A stretch of DNA of 64,000 nucleotides. Origin: Isoetes taiwanensis (lineage: Eukaryota; Streptophyta; Lycopodiopsida; Isoetales; Isoetaceae). The stretch covers positions 4,181,487-4,245,486 of the forward strand of contig JAJEKV010000049.1 of NCBI GenBank assembly GCA_021234155.1. Reading direction: 5' to 3'. The position numbers were made by a program, and so were the translations under genes. The notes below the pieces were generated by a model. That model saw only the letters and a list, made by a program, of their open reading frames with translations. It was not told the DNA's origin and ran no database searches. Position 1 is the first letter of the stretch. The number at the start of each line of letters is the position of its first letter. Below are positions 2,211 to 48,261 of the stretch, piece by piece.

Positions 2211-2214
2211 GAAA

Positions 2215-2269
2215 AACAAGGTTTAAAATGAAACGCACTTATTTAAGAAGTGCGTTTGAAAGATTCCTT
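2215..2269 (+). repeat. Left terminal inverted repeat of the 8.8-kb transposon
   Basis: The outer 30 bp match the right end in inverted orientation with one mismatch. The 10-mer AAACGCACTT occurs at 2231-2240 and again, inverted, as AAGTGCGTTT at 2248-2257, so the end can fold into a short hairpin. GAAAGATTCC follows and is shared with the right end. Confidence 0.8.
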
Positions 2270-2691
2270 TATAAAAATTGAAAACTTAAAAAAAACACAC
2301 AAAATAGGGAGCAAAATAGATTGTTGAGCAATTAGCATTCGGGATACCCCCAAAAAAGCAACATTTTTAAAGCTTTTTCATTTTAAAAGGAGGGCCAAAA
2401 AAAAAAAATGCTTGTTTTAAGGAGAGAGACATTAACTTTGATAACTCAGTAAGTATTTATTGTTAAAAACAGAAGGAAATATAGATTGTTTTTTTGCAAG
2501 CTTAATAGAAGTACTAAAAAAGTCAAACATTGGAAAGACAAAGAGTGTGAAATCCTGGAGCAAGAAAGAGTTGTTTCAATTAAGCATTGTTAGAGAGACA
2601 AAGCTTTTCAGGTTTAAAAAATCTTCATCAAAATAAATTATAATATTACTTAGCACATAGTTTACAATGAAAGTGGTTAAGAACTCTGTCT

Positions 2692-2705
2692 GTATAAATT
2701 TATAC
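2692..2705. repeat. Single palindrome GTATAAATTTATAC
   Basis: A perfect copy of the 14-bp palindrome, about 100 bp beyond the stop codon of the methyltransferase gene. It is the outermost copy on the left. Confidence 0.9.
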
Positions 2706-3440
2706 GAGAGGTGGCTCTTCCCAGTCCACAGGACTCTCGTACCCTTTGGGATCTGGCTCTTGCGAGCTTACAACAGCCAGAGAGCGCCTCGCCGATTCCA
2801 AACCTATTGGCCTGGCCGGTTTCTCCGCTCGGGCACCACAGGCTCCAAGTCAACAAACTCCACCTCCTCATCTCTTCTTCCTGTAAGTGGAGGCTGTATT
2901 TCTGTGTAAGTGCCCTTAGCATCGCTGGCACCGTTCTTTGCTCCCAGTTCCTCGTTTTCATCAGGAAAGGATTCGCAAGAGCTTATCCTGGTCCTGATGA
3001 AGCTTACTTTATCTGGGTCTATGTCGACGGAGACGACATTGCGCCCCGCTTAAGAAGCAATGGCTGGCGTGGTGCCCGATCCGAAAAAGGCATCTAGGAT
3101 CCGGCCTCTCCGGTGCCGAGAAAACCATCAGTATCAAATTATTAATAAGCCGATGTGGCTTCGATAATGGGACACCCACCTTTGTCATTTGTGGGTCTCT
3201 TTAATTTCACGCAAAACAATTTGAACCGAAATGCATTGCGGGGAGGAGTCTTTTTCATTGCGTGTTAAAATGAACCATGGTTTTTTGGCGTCCGCGCTAT
3301 ATGAAAATGCTCGAAAAAGCTCACTAAGCGCGGACCACCACCATGACCCTTGACGTTTGTTTTAAGCCTGCCAAGCAATATAGAAATTAGAAATTAGTAA
3401 AAAGAAAACAAGGAAAATAAGTTAGCCCAGTAGTGTGGCG

Positions 3441-3599
3441 GTATAAACTTATACCACGGTTGCCTTGCTGTATAAATTTATACCACGGCGGCAAGCCGTA
3501 TAAATTTATACAGACATTGCCTTGCTGTATAAATTTATACCACGGTTGTTCCAGCCTTTAAAATTTAAACCTTAAGACAGATGTGGTATAAATTTATAC
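3441..3599. repeat. Palindrome cluster in intron 6 of the methyltransferase gene
   Basis: GTATAAATTTATAC occurs at 3470-3483, 3498-3511, 3527-3540 and 3586-3599, with a one-base variant at 3441-3454. Spacing is about 28-30 bp for the first four and 59 bp (twice that) before the last. At 3555-3570 there is a decayed site (TTTAAAATTTAAAC) in the gap. The cluster lies wholly inside the intron between 3643 and 3368. Confidence 0.9.
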
Positions 3600-4659
3600 C
3601 GTGGAGTTACCGTAAAACAAAAAACGTTAATTGTGAAGCTTACCAAACGCAGTTTTCGAAGCCGGCGTTACAGACCGCTCCCATAGGTTTAAGCACCGAC
3701 ATCGTCTGAAGGTCAGAATGAAAAATGATGACCCTCCAGTTTTCAGATGTCGTGACTTCTTTGAGGCCATCCAGGAAAGACCGGACTTGCACGTGAGTGA
3801 AAGCCTCCTCATCAAAAGCGCTATCCTTTATTTTAAATCCATAAGGAATATCTGCAATGCATAATGTAAAATGTTGCTTGTCTAAAAGAGTCCCCAGCCT
3901 TGTACAATCACCCTCAACAACCCTGTATTGGACGTCCTGACCAAATGTGGTAAATCTCTCATATGTACAGTCAAAACTGGAAGTGGCGACCTCTCTACCC
4001 TGTTCAATTGCCTTTAACCTTTGCCTCTCTTCCTTGGCCCTACGAACCAGGTTCAAAAATCCAGTGGGTAGCCCCTTCTTCTTGTTCTGTAAGAGTAATG
4101 TGAGACAAAGGCACAAACACATAACATATTTTTTGCAAAACTTACCCGACCCCAATTGGGTTAATCTGGCGTGCTCTCTGATGATACTGTCTGTGGTACA
4201 ACTTGGGTACAAAAGTTTGCACTCCTCCCAGTCTTCTAGGTTGAGCTGCTTCATTAACTCGGCCTGGCAAGTGACAATGTCTTTCTGACTGCAAAGGGAA
4301 AAATATTGTAAGACAAAAAAAGGTAGAAAAAAACATGGCATAGCAAGTGAGGCTTACGTTTTAGCTTCCTTGGCCATCTCGTCTAATGTGAATTCTTTGG
4401 CAACTACTTTTTCCAACAGGCGAACAAATATTTCTTTGCTTTTAAGACCACAGAATCAAGGCCCGTGGTACAATGCTCATATTTTTTGTTTTGATTCACC
4501 ACCTTTCTTTGGTTTCTTTCCTGCGTCTTTAGCTTGTTCTTTGAGCTCCCCATCTTCGAACATACAAAAAATTCTCTCTTGAAGATCCCACACCTGTAAA
4601 TGGTCAAACGAAGTTTAGTGCTGAATGGTGTAAGAGGATGGGCACGGCGACTCAACACG

Positions 4660-4814
4660 GTATAAATTTATACCGTGCCTGGCGGCGGTATAAATTTATA
4701 CCGTGCCTGTTCGCGGTATAAATTTATATCATGCGACCGTGCACCTGATATAAATTTATACCATAACGCACGGTATAAATTTATACCGCGGCCAGGCACG
4801 ATATGAATTTATAC
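4660..4814. repeat. Palindrome cluster in intron 3 of the methyltransferase gene
   Basis: Perfect copies start at 4660, 4688 and 4773. Variants start at 4716, 4748 and about 4800. Spacing is 25-32 bp. The cluster is inside the intron between exon 3 (ends 4888) and exon 4 (starts 4593). Flanks are often CGG...CCGTGCC, which extends the dyad. Confidence 0.9.
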
Positions 4815-4887
4815 CGTCACTAGGCTATTACAAGATTCTAACCACGCTAAACATACTACAGAAGATTGAATTGAATCTTTTACTTAC

Positions 4888-5842
4888 TTGACCATCTCTG
4901 AAAGCGAGCTGAAAGTAGTTATCGTATTGTTTGACAGCCATAATGGGCTTCTTATCAGAATCATAGCTCAGGCAACACTCCGTCACACAGGCTTCTCGAA
5001 GCTCTTGAAGCTTATTCTTCTGTTTTTTGAAGTCCTCTCCATGCATTTGTTTGAACTCCACGTACTCTCGATGCATGAATCGGATCTTATCTATTAGGCT
5101 CATTTTTAACCGAAAGTCATTGTCAAGATTGTGACTTACGGCAATGACTTTTGCCTCTTCGTCTGTGACACCCACGTAAATATGGGCTTCCACGCTTTTC
5201 CACACCTCGTTACGGGTTTCTTCCTTTGAGAGTTCTTTTCTAGCCTTGTAGCTGTGTGTGCCTCCAAGGACGTAGTAGGTGTAATCTTCAAGTCTCCGCT
5301 TTTTGTAATCCTGCAATCGATTGCATTGACTTCTATCAACCATAACAACTAGAGGCGACACATGCGCATGAGGATTTCTTCTCATTCTTTGCTTAAGAAT
5401 GGCCACATGTGCCGCGTACAACTTTCGGACCTGCAGCACTCTGACCCCATCTTCATTTTTTGGTGGCCTCTTGATAGTGCTTAGTGTCAAAGAAATGGTT
5501 TGTTTGAGCAGTTTGGTTTCATTAACCCGCTTGAGAATAGCACTTGACTTATCTGCGGGCTTCAGCGATATCCGCTCCGGGGCCTTACGAAGAGCTTGGC
5601 GACTCCTCTATAGTCAAGGGCTTTGTTTTTCTAGATTTTTTCTTGGTAGGAGGCTGTGTATCTAGTACCAGGGAATGCTTCCTACCCTTTCCCTTTGTGT
5701 TGACTGGTTCCTCCTCTTCCTCTTCCTCTTCCTCTACCTCTTCCTCTACTACTTCCTCTTCGATACTACGGGGGTACCATAGACCCTTGACCAACACTTT
5801 TTCGTCGCACAACACGATTGACATCAAAATTTCTACTACGTC
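4888..5842 (-). other. Exon 3: acidic linker plus ParB-like domain
   Basis: The exon is bounded by ATTACAG|GAC at 5842 and GGTCAA|GTAAGT at 4888, both in phase 0, but is 955 nt long, one more than a multiple of three. That agrees with a single 1-nt insertion near 5605, where the frame carrying the Glu tract and KKKSRKTKPLTIEE gives way to the frame carrying RQALRKAPERISLKPADK. From about 5430 to 5100 the protein follows the ParB N-terminal layout: a short beta region, a basic stretch, the GGTHSYKA box (about 5268-5245), and an EEA..A..HNLDN segment like ParB's A..EN..R. A charged helical tail follows. The ParB assignment rests on motif resemblance; catalytic or CTP-binding function is not shown. 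Confidence 0.65.
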
Positions 5843-5874
5843 CTGTAATGCAGGGTTATGTTAAGAGACTGACG

Positions 5875-5888
5875 GTATAAATTTATAC
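5875..5888. repeat. Palindrome in intron 2 of the methyltransferase gene
   Basis: One perfect GTATAAATTTATAC in the roughly 70-bp intron between 5912 and 5843. Confidence 0.9.
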
Positions 5889-6502
5889 GGAAAGCACCTA
5901 AGAATAACTTACAAAGCCGTTCTTGTAATTGTCCGAAATATAATCATGCACGTCTTTAGGCTTGCACATGCTTATTTTAAACATTCTAGTATTCAGAACA
6001 TAGTAGACGGGGCCCTTGTCATGGTTGCACTGCATTAGAACTTCATCATCATTCTCTGTAGCAACAAGTTTCATAATTTCGCCAGCAGGGTAATAATCAT
6101 CAGACTTGAACTTGCCCTTCCCTGATTTATTGCACAAGTAAAGGTACGTATCAGTGGGTTTGCTCTCTCTTGCGCCCCTGTGGACGTACCAAGTCTGATC
6201 CTTTAGTTCATAAGTCTGTGGCTCTGGTGGTGCAGCCTTTGATGATGACCCGCCGAGTACAAACTTGATCTTAGGGCTGGAAAACGCGCAAAAAAAACCA
6301 TTTTTACACAAGAATATTAACCTTTTTTGAGTTTTTGAAACACAAAAACAGTAGAAAAAGAGGATGAAAGGGCATAAAATCCACACTAAATTAACACTTT
6401 ATTTGTGTCATTTAAGCTGGAAACACAACAATATTACGAAAATATTAAGGTTCGGGACCATTCGTTGAGCACTAGACATCAAGAATCTGAAATAATTCTG
6501 GA

Positions 6503-6725
6503 ACGGTATAAATTTATACGGCTCGAGCACGAGCGGTATAAATTTATACCGCTCGTGCTCGAGCCGTATAAATTTATACGCCTTGTGCTCGAGCGGTATA
6601 AATTTATACCGCTCCTGAGCACTTGCGGTATACAAGTGCTCGAGCGGTATAAATTTATACCGCTCGAGCACAAGGCGTATAAATTTTTACCGATCCAGAG
6701 TCATCTCGGTATAAATTTATACCGT
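6503..6725. repeat. Nested palindrome cluster in intron 1, potential large hairpin
   Basis: Seven GTATAAATTTATAC copies (six perfect: 6506, 6536, 6566, 6596, 6647, 6709; one variant at 6677) sit about 30 bp apart. The spacers are also symmetric: around 6536-6549 the arms GAGCACGAGCG / CGCTCGTGCTC pair, and the dyad continues through the neighbouring copies at 6506 and 6566. A second dyad, with CCTTGTGCTCGAGCG paired to CGCTCGAGCACAAGG, spans about 6580-6676. The cluster could form a cruciform in DNA or long hairpins in the intron RNA. Confidence 0.9.
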
Positions 6726-6797
6726 GGGGCTTACACTCTAACAGATTAAAACAAAAGAGAAACTAAAACAGTACGGAAAGTAGACTTACGTGGCCAT

Positions 6798-7180
6798 GAC
6801 CGTATGAACTAGCGTATAGAGGTTCCGGAGAGCAAATAAGAGGGGGTATATAAGGCGGACCGCGAGCGCCTTCGACTCCTAGCTGCGTATATGGAAAATA
6901 GGGTGGCCGGCGCCGGGCTTAAGTACCCCTGCTAAGTGCCGTTTCGTATAGCGTTTCTCCATAAAGATTCCAATACAAGTGTATGCGTGTTTTTAGGTAT
7001 AAATTTATACCGTGTCTTCCTCCCTCAGTATAAATTTATACCATCTCTAATATAAATTTATCTGATCTGCCAGCTACAAGTTTGCCTTCTCTGTATAAAT
7101 TTATACCATTCTGTGTAAACTTTTACCGTGCGCTATTACGTCGTATAAATTTATACAATGTGGCGCTTACCTTTAACGGT
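6798..7180. promoter_or_regulatory. Divergent intergenic region between the two transposon genes
   Basis: The 383-bp gap lies between the ATG of the minus-strand methyltransferase gene (6797) and the proposed ATG of the plus-strand gene (7181). The half next to the minus gene is GC-richer than the surroundings. Palindrome copies crowd the other half. A shared promoter is inferred from geometry; no TATA or initiator assignment is secure, because the palindromes themselves contain TATAAA on both strands. Confidence 0.5.
6997..7156. repeat. Palindrome cluster upstream of the plus-strand gene
   Basis: Perfect copies at 6997-7010, 7028-7041, 7093-7106 and 7143-7156, with degenerate copies near 7050 and 7113. 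The last one ends just before an ATG at 7158. This is the rightmost cluster. Confidence 0.9.
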
Positions 7181-10100
7181 ATGGCTCGAGAAAAAGAACT
7201 GCCAGAGCCTCCAACTCCACGTTTGCAAGCTTCCTCCTGCAATGACATTCACACCCCCTCAAGACGACACGAAAGTAGCCTCGAAATTACGCCTCGATAT
7301 TCAAACCCCCTCTGTTGATCTTACTCGGCCGACTACCTACCGGCTTCCACCACCCGGTTCAATTTACTCCACCACACCCTGCTCCTGAACGTCGTTTGCC
7401 CCCACCAATGTGTTTTACTCCACCACAGCCTAGAGAGGTCAGACTACCTCCTCCACTTCATTTCAGTACGTCGCCCTTAGTCCACAATAGGCTAAATCCG
7501 AGGAGGCAAATCACGCCAACTCCATCAATTTAAGCTAAATGGTACTACAACAAGTGGGAGCGGTCGTGACATGCAACTCCTGTTTTCTACGACACCGGGG
7601 AGCTGGTCAACTACGCCACCAACCTCGACATTTTTCCTAGGGAGAGGGAAAGCACCTCCCCTCAGGACTTGCACACACCAAACCTATCAGCATCTACAAG
7701 TACACCTCAAGTTGATCTCTTAGACGAAGAAACACCTCATGTTGATGTCTCAGACGAGGACCTACCAAAGCCACAAGACTCTATGTTCGAATTCAAAGCC
7801 CCTGCAAGTAAGAATCTTAAGCGTAACTTACACAAGAAAGCATGTACAACTGTTAGAAGAAAGAAACTCATGGGACGAGGCTCACTTGCGGGCAACACAT
7901 ACAAACTTTAATTGTTGTTCTCAACGTTGTTTGCTTAAGATTGGACTAAAGGAATTGAGGTTGATTCGTGATAGTTACAGTTCAATGACTCGCTAGACCA
8001 AAGGGGCTACTTAGCCTTCAATATTAGGCGGATGATGGTGAGAAGTTTACTTACACGGCTGGTGGCCACAATGTCCGTCAAACGGCCTTCAAATTGATTC
8101 ATGCTTTAGGCGGCAGAGCGACTTGACCGCCTAAAGAAAAGGCTTGACAAGAATCCGGGCATTAATGACTACCGCCATCGGGGAGGCATAACCAGAATTC
8201 ATGCCCTTCAATGTGTTTCACGGATGGAAGGTTTCTTTAAGGAGTCTTGTGAGAAACTCCCTAATAGCCCTATGTACCACTTGAGTGACAATTTCCACGA
8301 AACAAGAAGTCTCACGATAATTATAAGGAGATGTGTGTTGAGGTTTGGAGAACGCTTTGTCCGCTACTCTTACTTTCTTGTGCTCGAAAAAAGAGTTTTC
8401 TCGCGTGGCCATTCCTAGAAAGCATAGGATGTCTGCATTTTGTGCTACATGCTCAATTAAAAGCTCAGAGACAAAATGCAAGGACACTTCACACTAAAAG
8501 TAAGCTTTCGGGGCGTGTTCTTGCCTAGTTCTACTTAAAAGTAGGTTTTTCCTAAACATATTTTCATTTCGGATGCATTGAAGGAGAAACCGAACAAAAC
8601 CACGAGAACAACAATCTTTGGAAAGGAGAAAATTGACAAAACATAGGAAGAAAGCTTTGGAGCGACCACTCAACTACATATCGGTTGTTATTGATGGAAT
8701 GGACGAGAAGAAGACCACCCTACCACATTTTGTCAATGTGCCTAAGGATGCTGTTGAAGAAGATTTCATACATCTGCATGTTGTTGGTGCTATGGTATTT
8801 AATGGAAAACTATCTTGCAAGGCATTTTTGAATTATCCAAACATTCATGCTGATCCAAATCTCACTATCACAATATTGAATAAGCTTCTTTCCAATCTAG
8901 AACATATACCACCGGTTCTGTATCTTCAGCTAGACAACACGACAAGGGAAAATAAGAATGTCGGCGTTGTTTGCTTTTATCGTTGCTATGCTAGTAGAGA
9001 AACAAATCTTCAAGAAGGTGAAGATTGGTTTCCTGCTTGTTGGTCATACACACGACCAAATTGATCAGATGTTCAGTAGGTTCTCTAAACGTCTTGCTCG
9101 AAAAAAAGCTCTCAGCCTACCAGCAATGATTGAGGTTATCCAAGATTCCTACAATCCTCGTCCAGACATCGAGTTGTTGGAAGAAACTTATGATTTCAAA
9201 GAATGGATTTTTCGAAGAGATCAACTGGGTCACTGTGCTATTGAGCCCTTGAGAAATATTACATTTCAGCATCAGATCAAAATTTCACTTGTAGATGGCA
9301 TTTTACAAGGAAAGAAATATGCCACATCTTTGCAGTGGCAGCCAGCAGCAGGTGGGTAAAAGCATGTTAGGGTGTACCACTTTTGGAACCTGCAAAAGTA
9401 CATACACTAGGTACTTTAGAACTGGGTACTTTCTCATTTTTCTTTTCATTAAAACTAGTACAAAAGTCCAAAATAAAAGTCAAGGACGTGTTAATATTTA
9501 AAGGTAAGATAAATATAATGCTATCTAAGCCCAAAATATATATAAAAGTTCTAAAATGTACCTTTTATTGACATATTACACAGGTACCCAGTACCCAGTC
9601 CTGGGTACCTTTTTAGGTACTTTTTTAGTCACTAAATAATACTTTTTAAGGGACACCCTAACATGCTTTCACCCAGATATTCAATTCATTCGCACCATCC
9701 CCAATACTAGTTCCATGCTCTCTGCAGAGCAAATGCCTCTAAAAAGCTTGAAAGAAATCACAAAGAGTAAAAAGGAGGGAAGAGCATTTGACTCAAGCAA
9801 ATCATTGGATTTTATTGAGACAAGTATTCAGTCGTGCTCTAACCACTTTGGGGAGGCAGATGCTTTATGGTGGCCTCAGTTTTTTTCTCGGCAACGTGAT
9901 ATTTTGCAAGCTTCATTACAAGGTCGAAGACCAGTTACATTCAACTGGCCATCTAGGCAAACTCTCCCTGTGCAAGTTGATAATCAAGAGGAACATGTAG
10001 AGATATTGGCTAGCTTCGGATGAAGATGACATGAGTCATGTACACCGCCCTGTGACGCACAAAGACAACAAGTTGCTCGAGTATCCGGTTGGCCTCCGAG

Positions 10101-10610
10101 AGATTGAAAAGGAATGCTCATAGCTGTCCCAGCTGATAATGATGAATCTGGGAAGCCGTTCTGGCTAGCTAAAGTATTGGAGGTAACAAGAGAGGATGGA
10201 ATTCCCACTCAATTAAAAGTGCACTGGATGAGAACAAATGTTGCCAGTGCTTTCAGTGGGAGTTATACTTTGGAGATGGTAAAAACAGGAGTGGAAAAGA
10301 GAGCAAAGTCCAAAGCAAGCACTGCTAGCTGAAGTAAAGGTTCTTGCATATGACTTTGTTCTGACTGCTGCTAATAAGTTACGTATGGTCACTCAAACTT
10401 TAATAAGGTCGGCATGTGGATTAGACAAACAACCTAGAAAAGTGGCCAAAAAAGATGATGATGAGGACTCACTTGTAGACAGTGAGGAAGAAGATCGTTC
10501 GAGTACATCCAGTTTTGAGAGTGAAGTCGAGGATGAAGGCTCAAGTGATCGAGGGATTAAATGAGTGGGAGGATGAGATGCATCCCGATCTTGCTGCAAA
10601 ATGTAAGTTT
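7181..10610 (+). pseudogene. DUF7869-type, RNase H-like transposase-related gene, decayed
   Basis: The start is proposed at ATG 7181 (MAREKELPEPPTPRLQ). A proline-rich region with repeats of the form RLPPPxxFTPP follows (7225-7480), then an acidic segment (DLLDEETPHVDVSDEDLP). The core carries VVIDGMDEKKTTLPHF (8681-8730), LQLDNTTRENKN (8918-8953) and, after a frameshift near 8956, FLLVGHTHDQIDQMFSRF (about 9030-9085). These resemble what I recall of DUF7869 proteins; the acidic residues (D8693, D8933, D9054 or D9063) could be an RNase H-like DDE/D set. Beyond an intron at 9352-9676 the exon resumes in frame with IQFIRTIPN. Then come PFWLAKVLEV..VHWM and an acidic Ser/Glu tail ending near 10564. 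Frameshifts also occur around 7230-7330, 7915-8400, 8956 and 10020-10110. The gene is divergent to the methyltransferase gene within the same TIRs. Confidence 0.7.
9352..9676 (+). other. Introner-like intron with terminal inverted repeats
   Basis: This 325-bp intron joins the exon ending GCAGCAG with the exon starting ATATTC, and splicing keeps the frame (GCA GCA G|AT ATT). Its first bases, GTGGGTAAAAGCATG plus TTAGGGTGT, are matched by the reverse complement of its last bases, CTGGGTGAAAGCATG plus TTAGGGTGT, over 24 positions with two differences. The inverted repeats start at the splice sites themselves. CAG lies directly before the donor and is also the last triplet of the intron, a possible 3-bp target duplication. 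Inner sequence is rich in GGTAC motifs and has no coding potential. Confidence 0.7.
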
Positions 10611-10954
10611 GTCCGATGACTCAAACATGTAAAAAAGTAAAAAGAGCGGTGATGTAATGCGTCAAAATGTTCTATATTTTTGACAATTTTGTTCATAATT
10701 TTGTACAATTTTCACAACCATGAATATATCACTTCTTTGTCACTCTATTACCCTTGCTATTTTTTTAATTGCCCCTTTTTTGCTACACTTTATAAAAGTA
10801 ATTATTTTTTGTTCTAGTTTAGGAGGATGAAAATTGCTATTTAAAATTTTTGCATGAAAGTTATGTTCAATCAACCCCTCAAAAATGGTACCTAAATTAC
10901 TTAAATTGTCACACCTGTCACAAAAAAATCTTAAAAATGGACTTTTTTAAGGGA

Positions 10955-11030
10955 ATTTTAGGGAATCTTTCAAAGATTCCTTTTGAAGTGCGTTTCCAGC
11001 AAATAAGTGCGTTTCATTTTAAACTTTGTT
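10955..11030 (-). repeat. Right terminal inverted repeat of the 8.8-kb transposon
   Basis: Read on the minus strand it begins AACAAAGTTTAAAATG and then has AAACGCACTT twice in direct orientation, about 20 bp apart. This differs from the left end, where the two copies are inverted. GAATCTTTGAAAGATTCC follows, a small palindrome whose second half matches the left end. Confidence 0.8.
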
Positions 11031-11034
11031 GAAA

Positions 11035-13800: not shown

Positions 13801-16434
13801 TAACTTCAATTGTTAACTTCTAAATCCCAAAGTGTTTTTGGTATTCGAGATGCCAACAATTCTTTTATTTGGGAAATGTGATGGTTGATCATGAAGAAAT
13901 ATCGTGATTGGCAAGTGAAAACCATCTTCATATGTCATGCAAGTAGCAACAATAAATTTTGAGCCTAGCTTCTCCTTGGAGATATTTATACCGCGAGAAC
14001 TTTGCTCAATGGCATCCTAGCCTTTTGGGTGCTCACTAAATAAAAAAAGAAAATTATGCGATTGGAAACTCAATTCACAACGGAAAATATACCAGTCGAA
14101 TATTTGCTTGCCTCCATCCCAACTGCCCTAGCAACTACCATCAGTGGGTGGGAATCCCACAATATCATTTTTGAGATGGTACTAATGTTTAAAGTTATTT
14201 TTTATCTGCATTTATATTGAGAGTGGAAATTTTGTAGTCCCAAGGAATAATACCTCAGTATCCTAAAATGGCATGGGAACACAAACAGAAAACGGGTTCA
14301 TGCACTGCATGTTCAAGAGGACATTGCATTATCATGATTGGTCATTAACAGTGGGTTCAATCGCATATGTTTAGAACCAAAGAAATTTATCGCGACGGCC
14401 TTGGGGTGTTGTAGACATTCATAGGCCTCCAGTTGAGATAGTAATGGATGTCACTGACCCATTAAATGGGATGCATAATCAGCTTCAAAAGCAATGCTTC
14501 TGCATTTTCTTCCAAGAATAGTTGTTTCAACCCTAGTTCATTATTCCTTAAATGATGAGTGCTTCATACAGTATGTTGGGGTAACCATTTAACACCATAC
14601 AGGGACACAAAGTGAGCAAGATATAAATCTAGTTGACTTTTGCATTTTTATGTTGTATATGTGTGTTTGTTTATTTTTGTTTGCATGGTTTTCAGTTGTT
14701 TCTAAGAAAGAAGATAAAATGAGAACTCACAACGTCACTCTTGGCAATGTATTATGTTACTCCTCCTTGCCCAAACCTTGAGGTCTTATATGATATACAC
14801 CACCATCCCACATTCATCACTTTTATCATGTTTGTGGATTTCTAAGCAATATATTGGGGAACAAATGAATCAGGACAATGTAATGCACCTGCAGACATTA
14901 TATTATCAGAGTGCTGCATCCAAATATGCACAAGAGCACCTTCAACACGGGCTATAGTGATTCAAATTTGTTAAATGATCTCGATGATTTCACGTTAACC
15001 ATCTCAGGAGATCATTAATCCTTTTCTGGTTCACTAGGATCAAGTTGATACATCAAGTATAGATATTCTTAAGGAATATGATGCCATTGAATAGATTAGC
15101 CTCAACACGGGGTTACTCATTGCTTTCGAGAAAATATTAGCTCTGCAATGGGAATTAAATATTAGGTTCAAGGTACATGCGATGCTTTCTCTCGTCCATC
15201 ATCTAGGTCCTCAATTAAACTTGGGGTTAGAAGTGTGATATTTTAATTTTGCTTCGGGTTCAAAATTCCCTTAACTTTGATAAGCGACATAATGGCTAAT
15301 CAATGTAGCACAAGTAATGCTCCTATCTTACACTTCCAAAATATACAATCTAATGCAGTCCAAGCCCAATGGTGTATGCTTGATCTATTAGATGTTTGTT
15401 ATTCAAACATGTAATGCGTTAGAAGTAAATTCTATAAAAACATAGGTCGGAAATGCACCATTTTTCAAATATCTCAAAAATATTTTGTGAATTATTTACG
15501 TCCTCTAAATTTGGGCACCAAATTAGCAAACTTACAACGTTGAGTAAAGTGGCATCATAGTGCATATCATCACCTAACCTTGAAAACCTAACCTTGAAAT
15601 AAATTGTGAACAAGATTGAACCTTTTTAGACTATTATCGGACAACAACAATTTCAACTCATTGCACTTTCTAGAAATTTTCTAGGGCCCTCATATGGCAA
15701 AGTTGTGCTTTTGTGCTTGAGCTGTTGTAGCACATGTAACCTAATTGTACATAAAGCCACTTCAAAAGTTTTATGGTGACTTTTAAGTCAAACGCAATTT
15801 AAAGTTGATTTATTGATTTTAAGGTTGTGATGATGCCATAATATCCCCCCTATCCCCTAGTCTTTTAGACACAATTGTAAAGCCCAACTTTCGTCAATGC
15901 ATAAAGCTGTATGTATTTTTTGCACTTGGTGTCTTTCACAGAATCTGGAATGGTCACAAGTTCAAACCAATAAGCCAACCAAACAAAGGAAATGTTAGTG
16001 GGGCCGCCACGATAAATTTCTTGTATATATTGATGTATAGTTTCAGATAATTGTATGAGCTCAGATATCATATCATATCATATCATAATATATATACAAT
16101 AACTTCAGCAGCCCCCTTGTCCATAGAGATTTTCATCTGGACCGTTGATTGTGAAATCGATGGTTTTAGTGCAGCCACCTCGTCATTACCTAAGCACCCC
16201 TTTTGTTACATAGAGATTGATCCTGGCCATTGAAACATAAATCGACGGCTTGAATGTAGTCACGTCACAATCCCCCAAGCAGCCCCCTTATTTGGGGCTT
16301 TTAATCTGAACCATTAGATTCAAAAGTTCGATCTGGGCCGTCGATAATAAGTCATAAACAAATGGGACTTTTGATCCAAACCGTTGGATTTAAGGATTTG
16401 ACTTCAATTGTTAACTTCTAAATCCCAAAGTGTT
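13801..16434. repeat. Tandem 2.6-kb repeat, unit 1
   Basis: The unit starts TAACTTCAATTGTTAACTTC and is followed by two further near-identical units. Most of its length is non-coding. Copies share a 67-codon open stretch (14754-14957) that has no recognised domain. Compared with unit 2 it lacks about 17 bp and 6 bp near 14405 and 14470. Toward its end are several related motifs of the form gaccGTTGATTgtgaaat / ctgggCCGTCGATaata, remnants of an older short repeat. Confidence 0.9.
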
Positions 16435-19085
16435 TAACTTCAATTGTTAACTTCTAAATCCCAAAGTGTTTTTGGTTCGAGATGCCAACAATTCTTTTAT
16501 TTGGGAAATGTGATGGTTGATCATGAAGAAATATCGTGATTGGCAAGTGAAAACCATCTTCATATGTCATGCAAGTAGCAACAATAAATTTTGAGCCTAG
16601 CTTCTCCTTGGAGATATTTATACCGCGAGAACTTTGCTCAATGGCATCCTAGCCTTTTGGGTGCTCACTAAATAAAAAAAGAAAATTATGCGATTGGAAA
16701 CTCAATTCACAACGGAAAATATACCAGTCGAATATTTGCTTGCCTCCATCCCAACTGCCCTAGCAACTACCATCAGTGGGTGGGAATCCCACAATATCAT
16801 TTTTGAGATGGTACTAATGTTTAAAGTTATTTTTTATCTGCATTTATATTGAGTGGAAATTTTGTAGTCCCAAGGAATAATACCTCAGTATCCTAAAATG
16901 GCATGGGAACACAAACAGAAATCGGGTTCATGCACTGCATGTTCAAGAGGACATTGCATTATCATGATTGGTCATTAACAGTGGGTTCAATCGCATATGT
17001 TTAGAACCAAAGAAATTTATCGCGACGGCCTTGGGGGCATATCGTCTAAGGCTGTTGTAGACATTCATAGGCCTTCAGTTGAGATAGTAATGGATGTCAC
17101 TGACCCATTAAATGGGATGCAAATGCATAATCAGCTTCAAAAGCAATGCTTCTGCATTTTCTTCCAAGAACAGTTGTTTCAACCCTAGTTCATTATTCCT
17201 TAAATGATGAGTGCTTCATACAGTATGTTGGGGTAACCATTTAATACCATACAGGGACACAAAGTGAGCAAGATATAAATCTAGTTGACTTTTGCATTTT
17301 TATGTTGTATATGTGTGTTTGTTTATTTTTGTTTGCATGGTTTTCAGTTGTTTCTAAGAAAGAAGATAAAATGAGAACTCACAACGTCACTCTTGGCAAT
17401 GTATTATGTTACTCCTCCTTGCCCAAACCTTGAGGTCTTATATGATATACACCACCATCCCACATTCATCACTTTTATCATGTTTGTGGATTTCTAAGCA
17501 ATATATTGGGGAACAAATGAATCAGGACAATGTAATGCACCTGCAGACATTATATTATCAGAGTGCTGCATCCAAATATGCACAAGAGCACCTTCAACAC
17601 GGGCTATAGTGATTCAAATTTGTTAAATGATCCTAATCAGTTTACGGTAACCATCTCAGGAGATCATTAATCCTTTTCTGGTTCACTAGGATCAAGTTGA
17701 TACATCAAGTATAGATATTCTTAAGGAATATGATGCCATTGAATAGATTAGCCTCAACACTGGGGTTACTCATTGCTTTCAGAAAATATTGCGCTCTGCA
17801 ATGGGAATTAAATATTAGGTTCAAGGTACATGCGATGCTTTCTCTCGTCCATCATCTAGGTCCTCAATTAAACTTCAGGGTTAGAAGTGTGATATTTTAA
17901 TTTTGCTTCAGGTTCAAAATTCCCTTAACTTTGATAAGCGACATAATGGCTAATCAATGTAGCACAAGTAATGCTCCTATCTTACACTTCCAAAATATAC
18001 AATCTAATGCAGTCCAAGCCCAATGGTGTATGCTTGATCTATTAGATGTTTGTTATTCAAACATGTAATGCGTTAGAAGTAAATTCTATAAAAAACATAG
18101 GTCGGAAATGCACCATTTTTCAAATATCTCAAAAAATATTTTGTGAATTATTTACGTCCTCTAAATTTGGGCACCAATTTAGCAAACTTACAACGTTGAG
18201 TAAAGTGGCATCATAGTGCATATCATCACCTAACCTTGAAAACCTAACCTTGAAATAAATTGTGAACAAGATTGAACCTTTTTAGACTATTATCGGACAA
18301 CAACAATTTCAACTCATTGCACTTTCTAGAAATTTTCTAGGGCCCTCATATGGCAAAGTTGTGCTTTTGTGCTTGAGCTGTTGTAGCACATGTAACCTAA
18401 TTGTACATAAAGCCACTTCAAAAGTTTTATGGTGACTTTTAAGTCAAACGCAATTTAAAGTTGATTTATTGATTTTAAGGTTGTGATGATGCCATAATAT
18501 CCCCCCTATCCCCTAGTCTTTTAGACACAATTGTAAAGCCCAACTTTCGTCAATGCATAAAGCTGTATGTATTTTTTGCACTTGGTGTCTTTCACACAAT
18601 CTGGAATGGTCACAAGTTCAAACCAATAAGCCAACCAAACAAAGGAAATGTTAGTGGGGCCACCACGATAAATTTCTTGTATATATTGATGTATAGTTTC
18701 AGATAATTGTATGAGCTCAGATATCATATCATATCATAATATATATACAATAACTTAAGCAGCCCCCTTGTCCATAGAGATTTTCATCTGGACCGTTGAT
18801 TGTGAAATCGATGGTTTTAGTGCAGCCACCTCGTCATTACCTAAGCACCCCTTTTGTTACATAGAGATTGATCCTGGCCATTGAAACATAAATCGACGGC
18901 TTGAATGTAGTCACGTCACAATCCCCCAAGCAGCCCCCTTATTTGGGGCTTTTAATCCTAACCATTAGATTCAAAAGTTCGATCTGGGCCGTCGATAATA
19001 AGTCATAAACAAATGGGACTTTTGATCCAAACCGTTGGATTTAAGGATTTGACTTCAATTGTTAACTTCTAAATCCCAAAGTGTT
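16435..19085. repeat. Tandem 2.6-kb repeat, unit 2
   Basis: Near-identical to unit 1. The junction with unit 1 has a 35-36 bp direct duplication (16400-16435) of the unit start. This copy keeps about 17 bp and 6 bp that units 1 and 3 lack, so here a reading frame (16997-17185; KEIYRDGLGGISSKAVVDIH) stays open longer. Unit 2 may be closest to the ancestral form. Confidence 0.9.
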
Positions 19086-21665
19086 TAACTTCAATTGTTA
19101 ACTTCTAAATCCCAAAGTGTTTTTGGTATTCGAGATGCCAACAATTCTTTTATTTGGGAAATGTGATGGTTGATCATGAAGAAATATCGTGATTGGCAAG
19201 TGAAAACCATCTTCATATGTCATGCAAGTAGCAACAATAAATTTTGAGCCTAGCTTCTCCTTGGAGATATTTATACCGCGAGAACTTTGCTCAATGGCAT
19301 CCTAGCCTTTTGGGTGCTCACTAAATAAAAAAAGAAAATTATGCGATTGGAAACTCAATTCACAACGGAAAATATACCAGTCGAATATTTGCTTGCCTCC
19401 ATCCCAACCGCCCTAGCAACTACCATCAGTGGGTGGGAATCCCACAATATCATTTTTGAGATGGTACTAATGTTTAAAGTTATTTTTTATCTGCATTTAT
19501 ATTGAGAGTGGAAATTTTGTAGTCCCAAGGAATAATACCTCAGTATCCTAAAATGGCATGGGAACACAAACAGAAATCGGGTTCATGCACTGCATGTTCA
19601 AGAGGACATTGCATTATCATGATTGGTCATTAACAGTGGGTTCAATCGCATATGTTTAGAACCAAAGAAATTTATCGCGACGGCCTTGGGGTGTTGTAGA
19701 CATTCATAGGCCCTCGGTTGAGATAGTAATGGATGTCATCGACCCATTAAATGGGATGCATAATCAGCTTCAAAAGCAATGCTTACGCATTTTCTTCCAA
19801 GAATAGTTGTTTCAACCCTAGTTCATTATTCCTTAAATGATGAGTGCTTCATACTGGTATGTTGGGGTAACCATTTAACACCATCTGAGGGGACACAAAG
19901 TGAGCAAGATATAAATCTAGTTGACTTTTGCATTTTTATGTTGTATATGTGTGTTTGTTTATTTTTGTTTGCATGGTTTTCAGTTGTTTCTAAGAAAGAA
20001 GATAAAATGAGAACTCACAACGTCACTCTTGGCAATGTATTATGTTACTCCTCCTTGCCCAAACCTTGAGGTCTTATATGATATACACCACCATCCCACA
20101 TTCATCACTTTTATCATGTTTGTGGATTTCTAAGCAATATATTGGGGAACAAATGAATCAGGACAATGTAATGCACCTGCAGACATTATATTATCAGAGT
20201 GCTGCATCCAAATATGCACAAGAGCACCTTCAACACGGGCTATAGTGATTCAAATTTGTTAAATGATCCTGATCAGTTTACGTTAACCATCTCAGGAGAT
20301 CATTAATCCTTTTCTGGTTCACTAGGATCAAGTTGATACATCAAGTATAGATATTCTTAAGGAATATGATGCCATTGAATAGATTAGCCTCAACACTGGG
20401 GTTACTCATTGCTTTCAGAAAATATTGCGCTCTGCAATGGGAATTAAATATTAGGTTCAAGGTACATGCGATGCTTTCTCTCGTCCATCATCTAGGTCCT
20501 CAATTAAACTTCAGGGTTAGAAGTGTGATATTTTAATTTTGCTTCAGGTTCAAAATTCCCTTAACTTTGATAAGCGACATAATGGCTCCTATCTTACACT
20601 TCCAAAATATACAATCTAATGCAGTCCAAGCCCAATGGTGTATGCTTGATCTATTAGATGTTTGTTATTCAAACATGTAATGCGTTAGAAGTAAATTCTA
20701 TAAAAAACATAGGTCGGAAATGCAACATTTTTCAAATATCTCAAAAAATATTTTGTGAATTATTTACGTCCTCTAAATTTGGGCACCAATTTAGCAAACT
20801 TACAACGTTGAGTAAAGTGGCATCATAGTGCATATCATCACCTAACCTTGAAAACCTAACCTTGAAATAAATTGTGAACAAGATTGAACCTTTTTAGACT
20901 ATTATCGGACAACAACAATTTCAACTCATTGCACTTTCTAGAAATTTTCTAGGGCCCTCATATGGCAAAGTTGTGCTTTTGTGCTTGAGCTGTTGTAGCA
21001 CATGTAACCTAATTGTACATAAAGCCACTTCAAAAGTTTTATGGTGACTTTTAAGTCAAACGCAGTTTAAAGTTGATTTATTGATTTTAAGGTTGTGATG
21101 ATGCCATAATATCCCCCCTATCCCCTAGTCTTTTAGACACAATTGTAAAGCCCAACTTTCGTCAATGCATAAAGCTGTATGTATTTTTTGCACTGGGTGT
21201 CTTTCACACAATCTGGAATGGTCACAAGTTCAAACCAATAAGCCAACCAAACAAAGGAAATGTTAGTGGGGCCGCCACGATAAATTTCTTGTATATATTG
21301 ATGTATATGTTTCAGATAATTGTATGAGCTCAGATATCATATCATATCATAATATATATACAATAACTTAAGCAGCCCCCTTGTCCATAGAGATTTTCAT
21401 CTGGACCGTTCATTGTGAAATCGATGGTTTTAGTGCAGCCACCTCGTCATTACCTAAGCACCCCTTTTGTTACATAGAGATTGATCCTGGCCATTGAAAC
21501 ATAAATCGACGGCTTGAATGTAGTCACGTCACAATCCCCCAAGCAGCCCCCTTATTTGGGGCTTTTAATCTGAACCATTAGATTCAAAAGTTCGATCTGG
21601 GCCGTCGATAATAAGTCATAAACAAATGGGACTTTTGATCCAAACCGTTGGATTTAAGGATTTGA
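19086..21665. repeat. Tandem 2.6-kb repeat, unit 3
   Basis: Near-identical to units 1 and 2, with the same 36-bp junction duplication at its left edge. It has an internal deletion of about 20 bp at 20586 relative to the others (loss of TAATCAATGTAGCACAAG-like sequence). Similarity ends near 21665, where the sequence continues GATTTGGGCCATTGATT instead of re-entering the unit start. Confidence 0.9.
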
Positions 21666-47239: not shown

Positions 47240-48261
47240 CTAATCCTTCGAGAGCTTTTCAAAAAGTCCAGTTAAGCTGCATGAAAGTTCCTTCAACATG
47301 GTGATTTTCTCCTCCTCGTAGGAGCACTTCTTCTTCTCCAATTCCAAGCTCTCTTCATGAGCCTTCTTATTGAATTTCGTCATAGCACTAACAGCCTTTG
47401 CAACCTCTGCTGCAGCATTCTTAATCTTCTTGGATTTCTGGGCCACGCAAGTGGGTTTCTCTTCAGATTCCTTTGTTGTATCTTCTGGTGCTTTTCTTTT
47501 TTCCACACTAGGCACATCAATCTCTTCAACTTCATCTAGATCATCTGCCATCGGAGTGTTAGCATCACTTTCACTTTCATGAGCATAGCACAGAACATGT
47601 GCTCGTTGGTTCATGTATTGATCTACAAGATCATACCACCTGCATGTCTCACTTCTTTCCGCACCAGACACGTTATTTTGATTTTTATCGGCTTTGTACT
47701 CCTTATACACGGCTTGCCACTTCTTCCTGCAAGCCTCGCTGTCCTTGTCGAAGTCCGGACACTTTGCAACCAATTGCACGTAAAGTTTGTGCCAAATATC
47801 AACACCTTGTCTACCTGCTTTAGTGAGAAATTCCTCGTGCATCTGTCCACGAAGATGAATTAGCATAACGACCCAATGATCCTTCCAATTAGTGCCCATG
47901 CCCTCACAATATTTCCTGCTGGCGTTTTAGTAATCTTGGGTTTACGACCTCGCTTTTTTTTCTCAGATGGTTCATTGGAAACACCTTGGGAGCCAGGTGT
48001 GTCATTTTGAAACATAGGTGGACAGGTGAAGATGCTAGCAGGAGGAGGAGCAGACATCTCAGACATGTCTGGAAAGGCTAAACGTACAACATAAGGATAA
48101 TGTGGACGGCTAACTGGACGGTAGGGATAGTGAACGACAGGAGGTGTTGGTTGGATGTTTGACATGTCTGGAGAGGAATTGTCATCAATGCCTTGAGAAA
48201 GAGGAACGAAGGAGGAATAGCTTGTTTGGGACATTTGGATGTAAGGCTCAAATCTTGCCAT
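47240..48261 (-). pseudogene. AT-hook plus trihelix (Myb/SANT-like) DNA-binding protein, one frameshift
   Basis: It starts at ATG 48261 (MARFEPYIQMSQ) with a Pro/Tyr-rich N-terminus, then an AT-hook-like basic block KKKRGRKPKITK (about 47960-47925). The frame then shifts by one near 47915. The new frame reads SRKYCEGMGTNWKDHWVV and continues as a trihelix/Myb-like domain with spaced Trp and a helix-ending C.KKWQAVYKEYK (about 47740). An acidic region (DDLDEVEEID) and a Lys/Glu coiled coil (LELEKKKCSYEEEKITML) lead to TAG at 47242-47240. Such proteins bind DNA in the nucleus; similar ones are also encoded by PIF/Harbinger transposons, so a transposon origin is possible. The frameshift could be an assembly error, since the rest is open. 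No splice pair was found that would fix it. Confidence 0.65.

Follow-up and report, generated by a model that had tools for sequence, protein, structure and literature searches.

A 64,000-nucleotide stretch of the genome of the lycophyte Isoetes taiwanensis (assembly GCA_021234155.1, contig JAJEKV010000049.1, positions 4,181,487 to 4,245,486 of the forward strand; hereafter the window) contains an 8,816-bp DNA transposon at positions 2215-11030, half of which is taken up by a minus-strand gene that joins a divergent ParB-type domain to a DNA amino-methyltransferase. The gene is interrupted by introns and its family has evolved under purifying selection, and arrays of a 16-bp palindrome in the noncoding DNA in and around the gene avoid its exons and are conserved between two clades of copies. 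The best explanation, in which we place about even confidence, is that the ParB-methylase is an accessory protein predicted to bind the palindromes of its own transposon and to methylate the element, and that it would thereby serve self-marking or anti-silencing in a manner resembling VANC21 of Arabidopsis. An earlier note, made from the DNA letters alone, had confined the feature to 2804..6797; this extent is too small, as the gene is only half of the 8.8-kb element, and the palindrome arrays had been overlooked.

The transposon and its family

The window element is bounded by 30-nt terminal inverted repeats (TIRs) that are 97% complementary and is flanked on both sides by GAAA, a 4-bp target-site duplication (TSD). 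Together with the window, 20 ten-kb stretches from the same genome were examined, and both TIRs were located (at most 3 mismatches) in six of these 21 stretches. The 4-bp flanks were identical in five of the six (GAAA, CAAT, GTAT, AAGG and AATG) and differed in the sixth, L023; the five complete copies measure 8.5-8.8 kb. By its 4-bp TSD, its TIRs and this size, traits that are not unique to Sola, the element likely belongs to the Sola superfamily, which, in the accessible part of its description, has a 4-bp TSD, measures mostly 2-9 kb and is recorded from a moss (PMC10741241).

The right half of the element encodes a plus-strand protein that matches DUF7869 (PF25273; E 3.8e-17 and 5.7e-29) and was detected in 16 of the 21 stretches (the window and 15 of the 20 others). 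Because of its place and the TIR/TSD structure, this protein is read as the probable transposase. Inside its gene, a 26-nt inverted repeat pair (92%) surrounds about 320 bp (9353-9675), a pattern expected if a small inverted-repeat element had inserted there.

The 1.66-Gb assembly contains at least 150 matches to the ParB exon, itself included (150 of 3,350 candidates were scored), and the other scored matches are 77-96% identical. Because of these matches, it was concluded that the fusion is not an artefact; together with the TIRs, the TSD and the introns, they also bear out the original proposal of a eukaryotic transposon. The copies that were fetched fall into two clades, the aligned pieces of which share 74-94% and 67-74% nucleotide identity with the window.

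Selection was assessed from Nei-Gojobori medians of the ratio of nonsynonymous to synonymous divergence (dN/dS), excluding the window copy and taking 11 copies as the close clade. Over the 55 close pairs, the ParB exon has a synonymous difference (pS) of 0.51, a nonsynonymous difference (pN) of 0.016 and a median dN/dS of 0.019, and over the 44 close-far pairs the median is 0.036. For methylase exon 6, the medians are 0.145 in close pairs and 0.058 in close-far pairs. Wide divergence at silent sites, with the amino-acid sequence preserved, indicates that the protein was needed for the spread of the family.

Structure of the ParB-methylase gene

The minus-strand gene extends in the window copy from an ATG at 6797 to a TAG at 2806-2804, in agreement with the earlier note, and its product comprises, in order, an N-terminal region, the divergent ParB-type domain and a beta-class DNA amino-methyltransferase. 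The motifs on which the fusion had been proposed (VLGGTHSYKA, DIPYGF, WLKTNVKGHGGG and FFGSGTT) all lie on the minus strand in that order. The introns with consensus sites that had been claimed are six in number, with GTAAG[T/C] donors and AG acceptors at the expected places, and many of the other aligned genomic copies, though not every one, share these splice sites; GTAAGY is found nine times on the minus strand within 2801-6800 and twice on the plus strand. A separate exon that had been placed after exon 7 appears instead to be part of it, because in one copy, L029, no splicing is needed for the frame to remain open from exon 7 onwards to its end.

The description of the window copy as broken holds: frame changes lie inside exons 3 and 4, the phases of exons 5 and 6 do not match, and the last exon contains stops and a degraded stretch, so that the full protein cannot be made. 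In all, 21 copies were spliced and translated, 16 of them aligned (window included) and five more; L031, L034, L036, L039 and L040 were excluded from the 16-sequence gene alignment. Only L029 has an uninterrupted spliced frame, of 941 amino acids (aa). In L031, L034 and L039, arrays or gene parts are displaced relative to the other copies, as if additional sequence had been inserted.

No known domain was found in the N-terminal region (exon 2) by Pfam and PDB sequence searches, which also gave no support to a BAH or chromo-like domain suspected there by eye. Between this region and the ParB domain, exon 3 contains a glutamate-rich stretch (5705-5770), followed by basic motifs that by eye resemble a nuclear localisation signal.

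The methyltransferase half

The sequence matches make the identity of the methyltransferase clear. When exons 6 and 7 of the window were joined, with X at the breaks, they matched the Pfam family N6_N4_Mtase (PF01555; E 5.9e-6, 26.8 bits with a cut-off of 26.7), as well as UPF0020 under the cut-off (2.7e-4), the phage families phrog_498 (1.6e-8) and phrog_67 (9.1e-8), and CcrM (7.7e-4, in three blocks in matching order). The methylase of L029 matches CcrM at 1.3e-9, M.MboIIA at 2e-8 and M.RsrI at 2.5e-7. The profile search that had been suggested as a check thus came out in favour of a methyltransferase. Furthermore, comparison of L029 with three phage methylases by hhalign gave 98.1% over 215 columns with a score of 95.7, which was reached by none of 60 shuffles (maximum 22.6).

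Motif IV (DIPYGF, exon 6) precedes motif I (F[FS]GSGTT, last exon), which is the beta order, and DIPYGF is retained in 14 of the 16 aligned copies, the exceptions being L026 and L035. Motif IV, a VWxKxN block, QKP and motif I are collinear with those of CcrM. CcrM, M.MboIIA and M.RsrI differ from the Isoetes protein in being stand-alone bacterial enzymes and in reading DPPY where DIPY is found here. We take all three to be beta-class N6-adenine enzymes, and because these are the three best solved relatives, N6-methyladenine (6mA) is favoured over N4-methylcytosine (4mC) as the probable product.

Phage records probed with the window methylase gave 175 matches at E<=10, the best E being 6e-3 among the 20 matches listed; a database of 5.8 billion proteins, which detects short-word relatives only, held no relative of the methylase exon; and solved structures probed with single window exons gave no meaningful match.

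The ParB half

The ParB half is divergent, and its identity, weaker than that of the methylase but consistent, is considered probable from profile comparisons. The window exon matches the ParB-like families phrog_723 (E 0.014) and phrog_6392 (E 0.13), both of which touch the same box. In a tblastn search of 50,697 phage records there were five matches at E<=10, all non-significant (E 5-6) and all from related Gordonia phages; all five proteins are annotated with a ParB-like nuclease domain and all matches fall on residues 112-159. An hhalign comparison of the window exon and its Riccia relative (below) with nine phage or plasmid ParB sequences gave 91.9% probability and a score of 45.1 over 46 columns, with a target choice that was not fully independent, having been reached via a weak tblastn match of the same query. 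In the controls, the highest score was 17.6 among 100 shuffles of the columns, and a reversed profile scored 13.1; L029 alone gave 90.3 against the ParB profile. Eight phage or plasmid proteins annotated as ParB or matched here were themselves compared with Pfam ParB_N, and two scored above its cut-off, four below it and two not at all. The box common to both sides reads VLGGTHS/VLGGNHT, against VLAGNHT.

Canonical ParB/parS partition involves a CTP-binding GERRxR box, a helix-turn-helix domain and a ParA partner. The Isoetes protein is not of this canonical kind: the window box reads GGTHSYKA rather than the partition-type GERRxR. ParA was not seen among the element pieces that were scanned against families, which covered part of the open reading frames (ORFs).

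The only relative of the ParB exon found in the same protein database is R1sor_018961 of the liverwort Riccia sorocarpa (E 4.8e-14, 37%), and no long relative with the ParB core was found there. Three protein scans and one palindrome-array scan of viral contigs revealed no relative, nor did a search of prokaryote genome contigs.

Palindrome arrays

The palindrome GGTATAAATTTATACC occurs 24 times in the window (at most 3 mismatches) against 0.38 expected, and all occurrences fall within 2691-7157. Exons are free of them, whereas random placement within this span would overlap exons in 62% of cases. The same holds for the 16 aligned gene regions, some of which are cut or rearranged: none of their 322 palindromes lies in an exon, while exons make up 61.5% of the aligned window region. 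Palindromes are present in introns 2, 3 and 6 of all 16 copies, in intron 1 of 14, in the upstream region of 13 and in the 3' flank of 10, and their number per copy varies from 8 to 28. In the 20 copies used for site profiles and spacings (L040 was left out), 184 of the 308 neighbour distances of 70 bp or less are 28-32 bp. In the five complete copies, the palindromes begin approximately 470 bp from the left end and none is found past offset 5,129 or in the 1.2-1.5 kb of flank examined.

The palindrome consensus is identical in both clades. Intron 2 contains exactly one palindrome in 16 of 16 copies, which is 91% identical between clades compared with 32% for the rest of the intron; the two palindrome-free introns are 37% and 26% identical. 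The sequences flanking the sites differ between arrays, and a 14-bp core is nearly invariant. Over the whole assembly, inside or outside the element, perfect copies of GGTATAAATTTATACC number 7,218, versus 0 for a reversed-letter control. We read the palindromes as the probable footprint of a DNA-binding protein, the sites of which would be kept in the noncoding parts of the element.

Proposed mechanism and alternatives

In the mechanism that we propose, the most certain step is that the ParB half, perhaps with neighbouring segments, would recognise GGTATAAATTTATACC at sites that are often arranged in steps of 28-32 bp in the introns, in the spacer that separates the two genes and in the 3' flanking DNA. 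The tethered methylase would then mark the DNA of the element itself with N6-methyladenine or, less likely, with N4-methylcytosine. Finally, and least certainly, the mark or the bound protein may label the element as its own and counter host silencing, or may tune its expression and transposition. The complete chain of self-recognition and self-methylation, in which a ParB-methylase reads a palindrome confined to the noncoding DNA of the element, writes 6mA or 4mC on its own copies and escapes silencing in a VANC-like fashion with bacterial parts, is more tentative, and we would put it somewhat short of an even chance.

Several observations weigh against this explanation. Binding by the ParB half is a prediction, and the palindromes might instead be read by the transposase or by a protein of the host. 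Pfam ParB_N has no match to the window ParB exon, and the Riccia relative has no match in Pfam or PHROGs at E<=1; a helix-turn-helix domain, suspected by eye behind the ParB domain, was not found in family searches. The structure model of the ParB exon is poor (pLDDT 41), and its order of strands and helices looks compatible with ParB by eye only. The ParB assignment of the earlier note is still taken as probable: the Pfam check that it named gave no ParBc match, and this was overruled because of the profile-profile result (91.9%, 45.1 against a maximum of 17.6) and the conserved fusion. An intact relative had likewise been called for; L029 supplies the open 941-aa frame, but its intron-2 donor is AT rather than GT, it is not called intact, and none of the 21 translated copies proved fully intact. 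The circular-shift control for exon avoidance is modest, as 55 of 4,467 shifts were also exon-free, the 30 of these 55 that were listed lying near the true position. The right half of the element is without palindromes, a layout that a purely element-wide mark would not demand. Finally, the six far-far pairs give dN/dS values of 0.73 and 0.44, to which no weight was given, since their silent sites are saturated and several of the copies are broken.

Self-marking or anti-silencing is favoured over an assembly function for the transposase, because the sites lie at neither end of the element, and control of transposition is the next rival. In the latter model, methylation would govern the timing of transposition or its coupling to replication rather than escape from silencing, much as Dam methylation controls the bacterial elements IS10 and IS50. 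In its favour, CcrM, the best solved-structure match, is a cell-cycle methylase, and sites are also present between the two divergent genes. However, the two ends, at which hemimethylation would have to control the binding of transposase, have no site nearby, and we regard the model as unlikely, if the strongest of the alternatives.

A somewhat less probable alternative is that the palindromes are binding sites at which the transposase assembles the transpososome, and that the ParB-methylase has other targets, such as host genes, or is a general DNA-marking enzyme. Many DNA transposons carry internal transposase sites, and the site-free flanks of the five complete copies (1.2-1.5 kb) imply that the sites belong to the element. 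Their distribution fits poorly: they run from about 470 bp off the left end to no further than 5,129 bp, and so are not subterminal and not found at both ends. They are located in and beside the ParB-methylase gene, in its introns and flanks, while the right half, with the transposase-like gene, is site-free.

There is little likelihood that the palindromes are a functionless satellite or a small mobile repeat that invaded the introns. That they form tandem arrays of variable number (8 to 28 per copy) speaks for such a repeat, but one site persists in intron 2 of every aligned copy while the remainder of that intron has diverged to 32% identity between clades, and the 14-bp core is nearly invariant where flanks differ between arrays. 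Least probable is a defence or superinfection device that marks DNA while another activity of the element attacks unmarked rivals. Such restriction-modification use of these methylases is common in prokaryotes, but no nuclease family matched among the element pieces scanned, which covered part of the ORFs.

Other features of the window

The coordinates of the element and its parts are collected in Table 1. Outside the element, tandem-repeat patches at 15572-15599 and 18228-18255, and at 16397-16471 and 19048-19122, contain the same units approximately 2.65 kb apart, which suggests a duplication of a few kb. A minus-strand ORF at 33528-34187 matches reverse transcriptase (PF00078, 4.4e-14) and, below threshold, an endonuclease, and is perhaps a fragment of a LINE-type retroelement. 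Another minus-strand ORF (47240-47899) matches a Myb/SANT-like DNA-binding domain (PF13837, 3.2e-9).

Table 1. Features of the transposon in the window, in order of position
Feature	Position	Strand	Remarks
Left target-site duplication GAAA	2211..2214	.	identical 4 bp at 11031-11034
Left terminal inverted repeat, 30 nt	2215..2244	.	97% complementary to 11001-11030; same TIR in other copies
Palindrome site, 3' flank of ParB-methylase gene	2691..2706	.	
Exon 7 (last)	2804..3367	-	VWLKTN block, degraded stretch with stops, motif I FFGSGTT, C-terminal tail, TAG 2806-2804
Intron 6	3368..3643	-	palindrome array (3440-3600)
Exon 6	3644..4086	-	N-terminal half of methyltransferase, GDC..ADIPYGF (motif IV)
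Exon 5	4146..4288	-	
Exon 4	4358..4593	-	internal frame change in window copy
Intron 3	4594..4887	-	palindrome array (4659-4815)
Exon 3	4888..5842	-	acidic linker and probable ParB-type domain, box VLGGTHSYKA; frame change in first part (window copy)
Intron 2	5843..5912	-	single palindrome site (5874-5889); one in 16/16 aligned copies
Exon 2	5913..6276	-	N-terminal region; known domain not found
Intron 1	6277..6789	-	palindrome array (6505-6723)
Exon 1	6790..6797	-	ATG at 6797
Palindrome sites between the two divergent genes	6996..7157	.	
Transposase-like gene, broken, rough bounds	7184..10600	+	DUF7869 at 8750-9215
Right terminal inverted repeat	11001..11030	.	pairs with 2215-2244
Right target-site duplication GAAA	11031..11034	.	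matches 2211..2214

Relation to known systems and significance

The novelty that had been claimed for a ParB-methylase fusion in a transposon does not hold, as such a fusion in a eukaryotic transposon has already been published: Sola1-1_Ec32 of the brown alga Ectocarpus encodes a ParB-like/DNA methyltransferase protein, and the accessible part of that account cites green and red algal relatives and proposes that proteins of this kind bind, and modify, the sequence of the transposon that encodes them (PMC12477816). As described there, the Ectocarpus protein likewise combines a ParB-like domain with an N4-cytosine/N6-adenine methyltransferase, and is an accessory protein of a large DNA transposon that is encoded on the other strand from the transposase. 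It differs, in a comparison made by description only, in belonging to another family and in its length (1104 aa, versus 941 aa in L029). Iyer 2011 and Petroll 2025 are reportedly the sources for the green and red algal relatives. Palindrome arrays, purifying selection and copy number, which were measured here, are not mentioned for the Ectocarpus protein in the portion of the paper that could be consulted (PMC12477816). The concept is thus not new; the binding-site arrays, selection and copy number are absent from earlier accounts as far as these are accessible. Among the papers listed by a literature search with limited reach into subscription journals, no other was recognised as describing a protein of this kind from land plants, or a palindrome array that accompanies one.

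Fusions of the two domains also occur in phages. The family phrog_498, the best phage match of the window methylase, spans both domains and is a fusion family, and gp50 of prophage prophiT46-2 (L005) is a natural fusion in which ParB_N covers 6-87 (4.7e-5, under the cut-off) and N6_N4_Mtase covers 187-383. The phrog_498 fusions share both domains and their order with the Isoetes protein, and have a GNHT-type box that resembles VLGGTHS/VLGGNHT and a beta-order methylase. The gp50 protein differs in its length of 408 aa, in having neither introns nor the N-terminal region, and in its position in a phage beside terminase.

The closest functional parallel may lie in Arabidopsis, where, as far as the account is accessible, VANC21 localises to the introns, intergenic and terminal noncoding DNA of VANDAL21 via arrays of short motifs, and VANC brings about a loss of DNA methylation over the whole transposon (PMC5735166). 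The likeness concerns an element-encoded factor and short motifs arrayed in introns, intergenic and terminal noncoding DNA, the arrangement of sites being all that was compared. The VANC motif is the 9-bp YAGTATTAY in one orientation, in contrast to the 16-bp palindrome found here, and VANC is not described as a methylase or a ParB protein in the accessible text (PMC5735166). By analogy, the ParB-methylase may work like VANC, although membership in that group is not claimed.

A conserved candidate site, thousands of genomic copies of it and strong purifying selection on the protein make the published proposal of self-marking directly testable. If the proposal is true, this family would represent a second, independent route to sequence-specific anti-silencing by a transposon and would supply a complex eukaryote with 6mA or 4mC.

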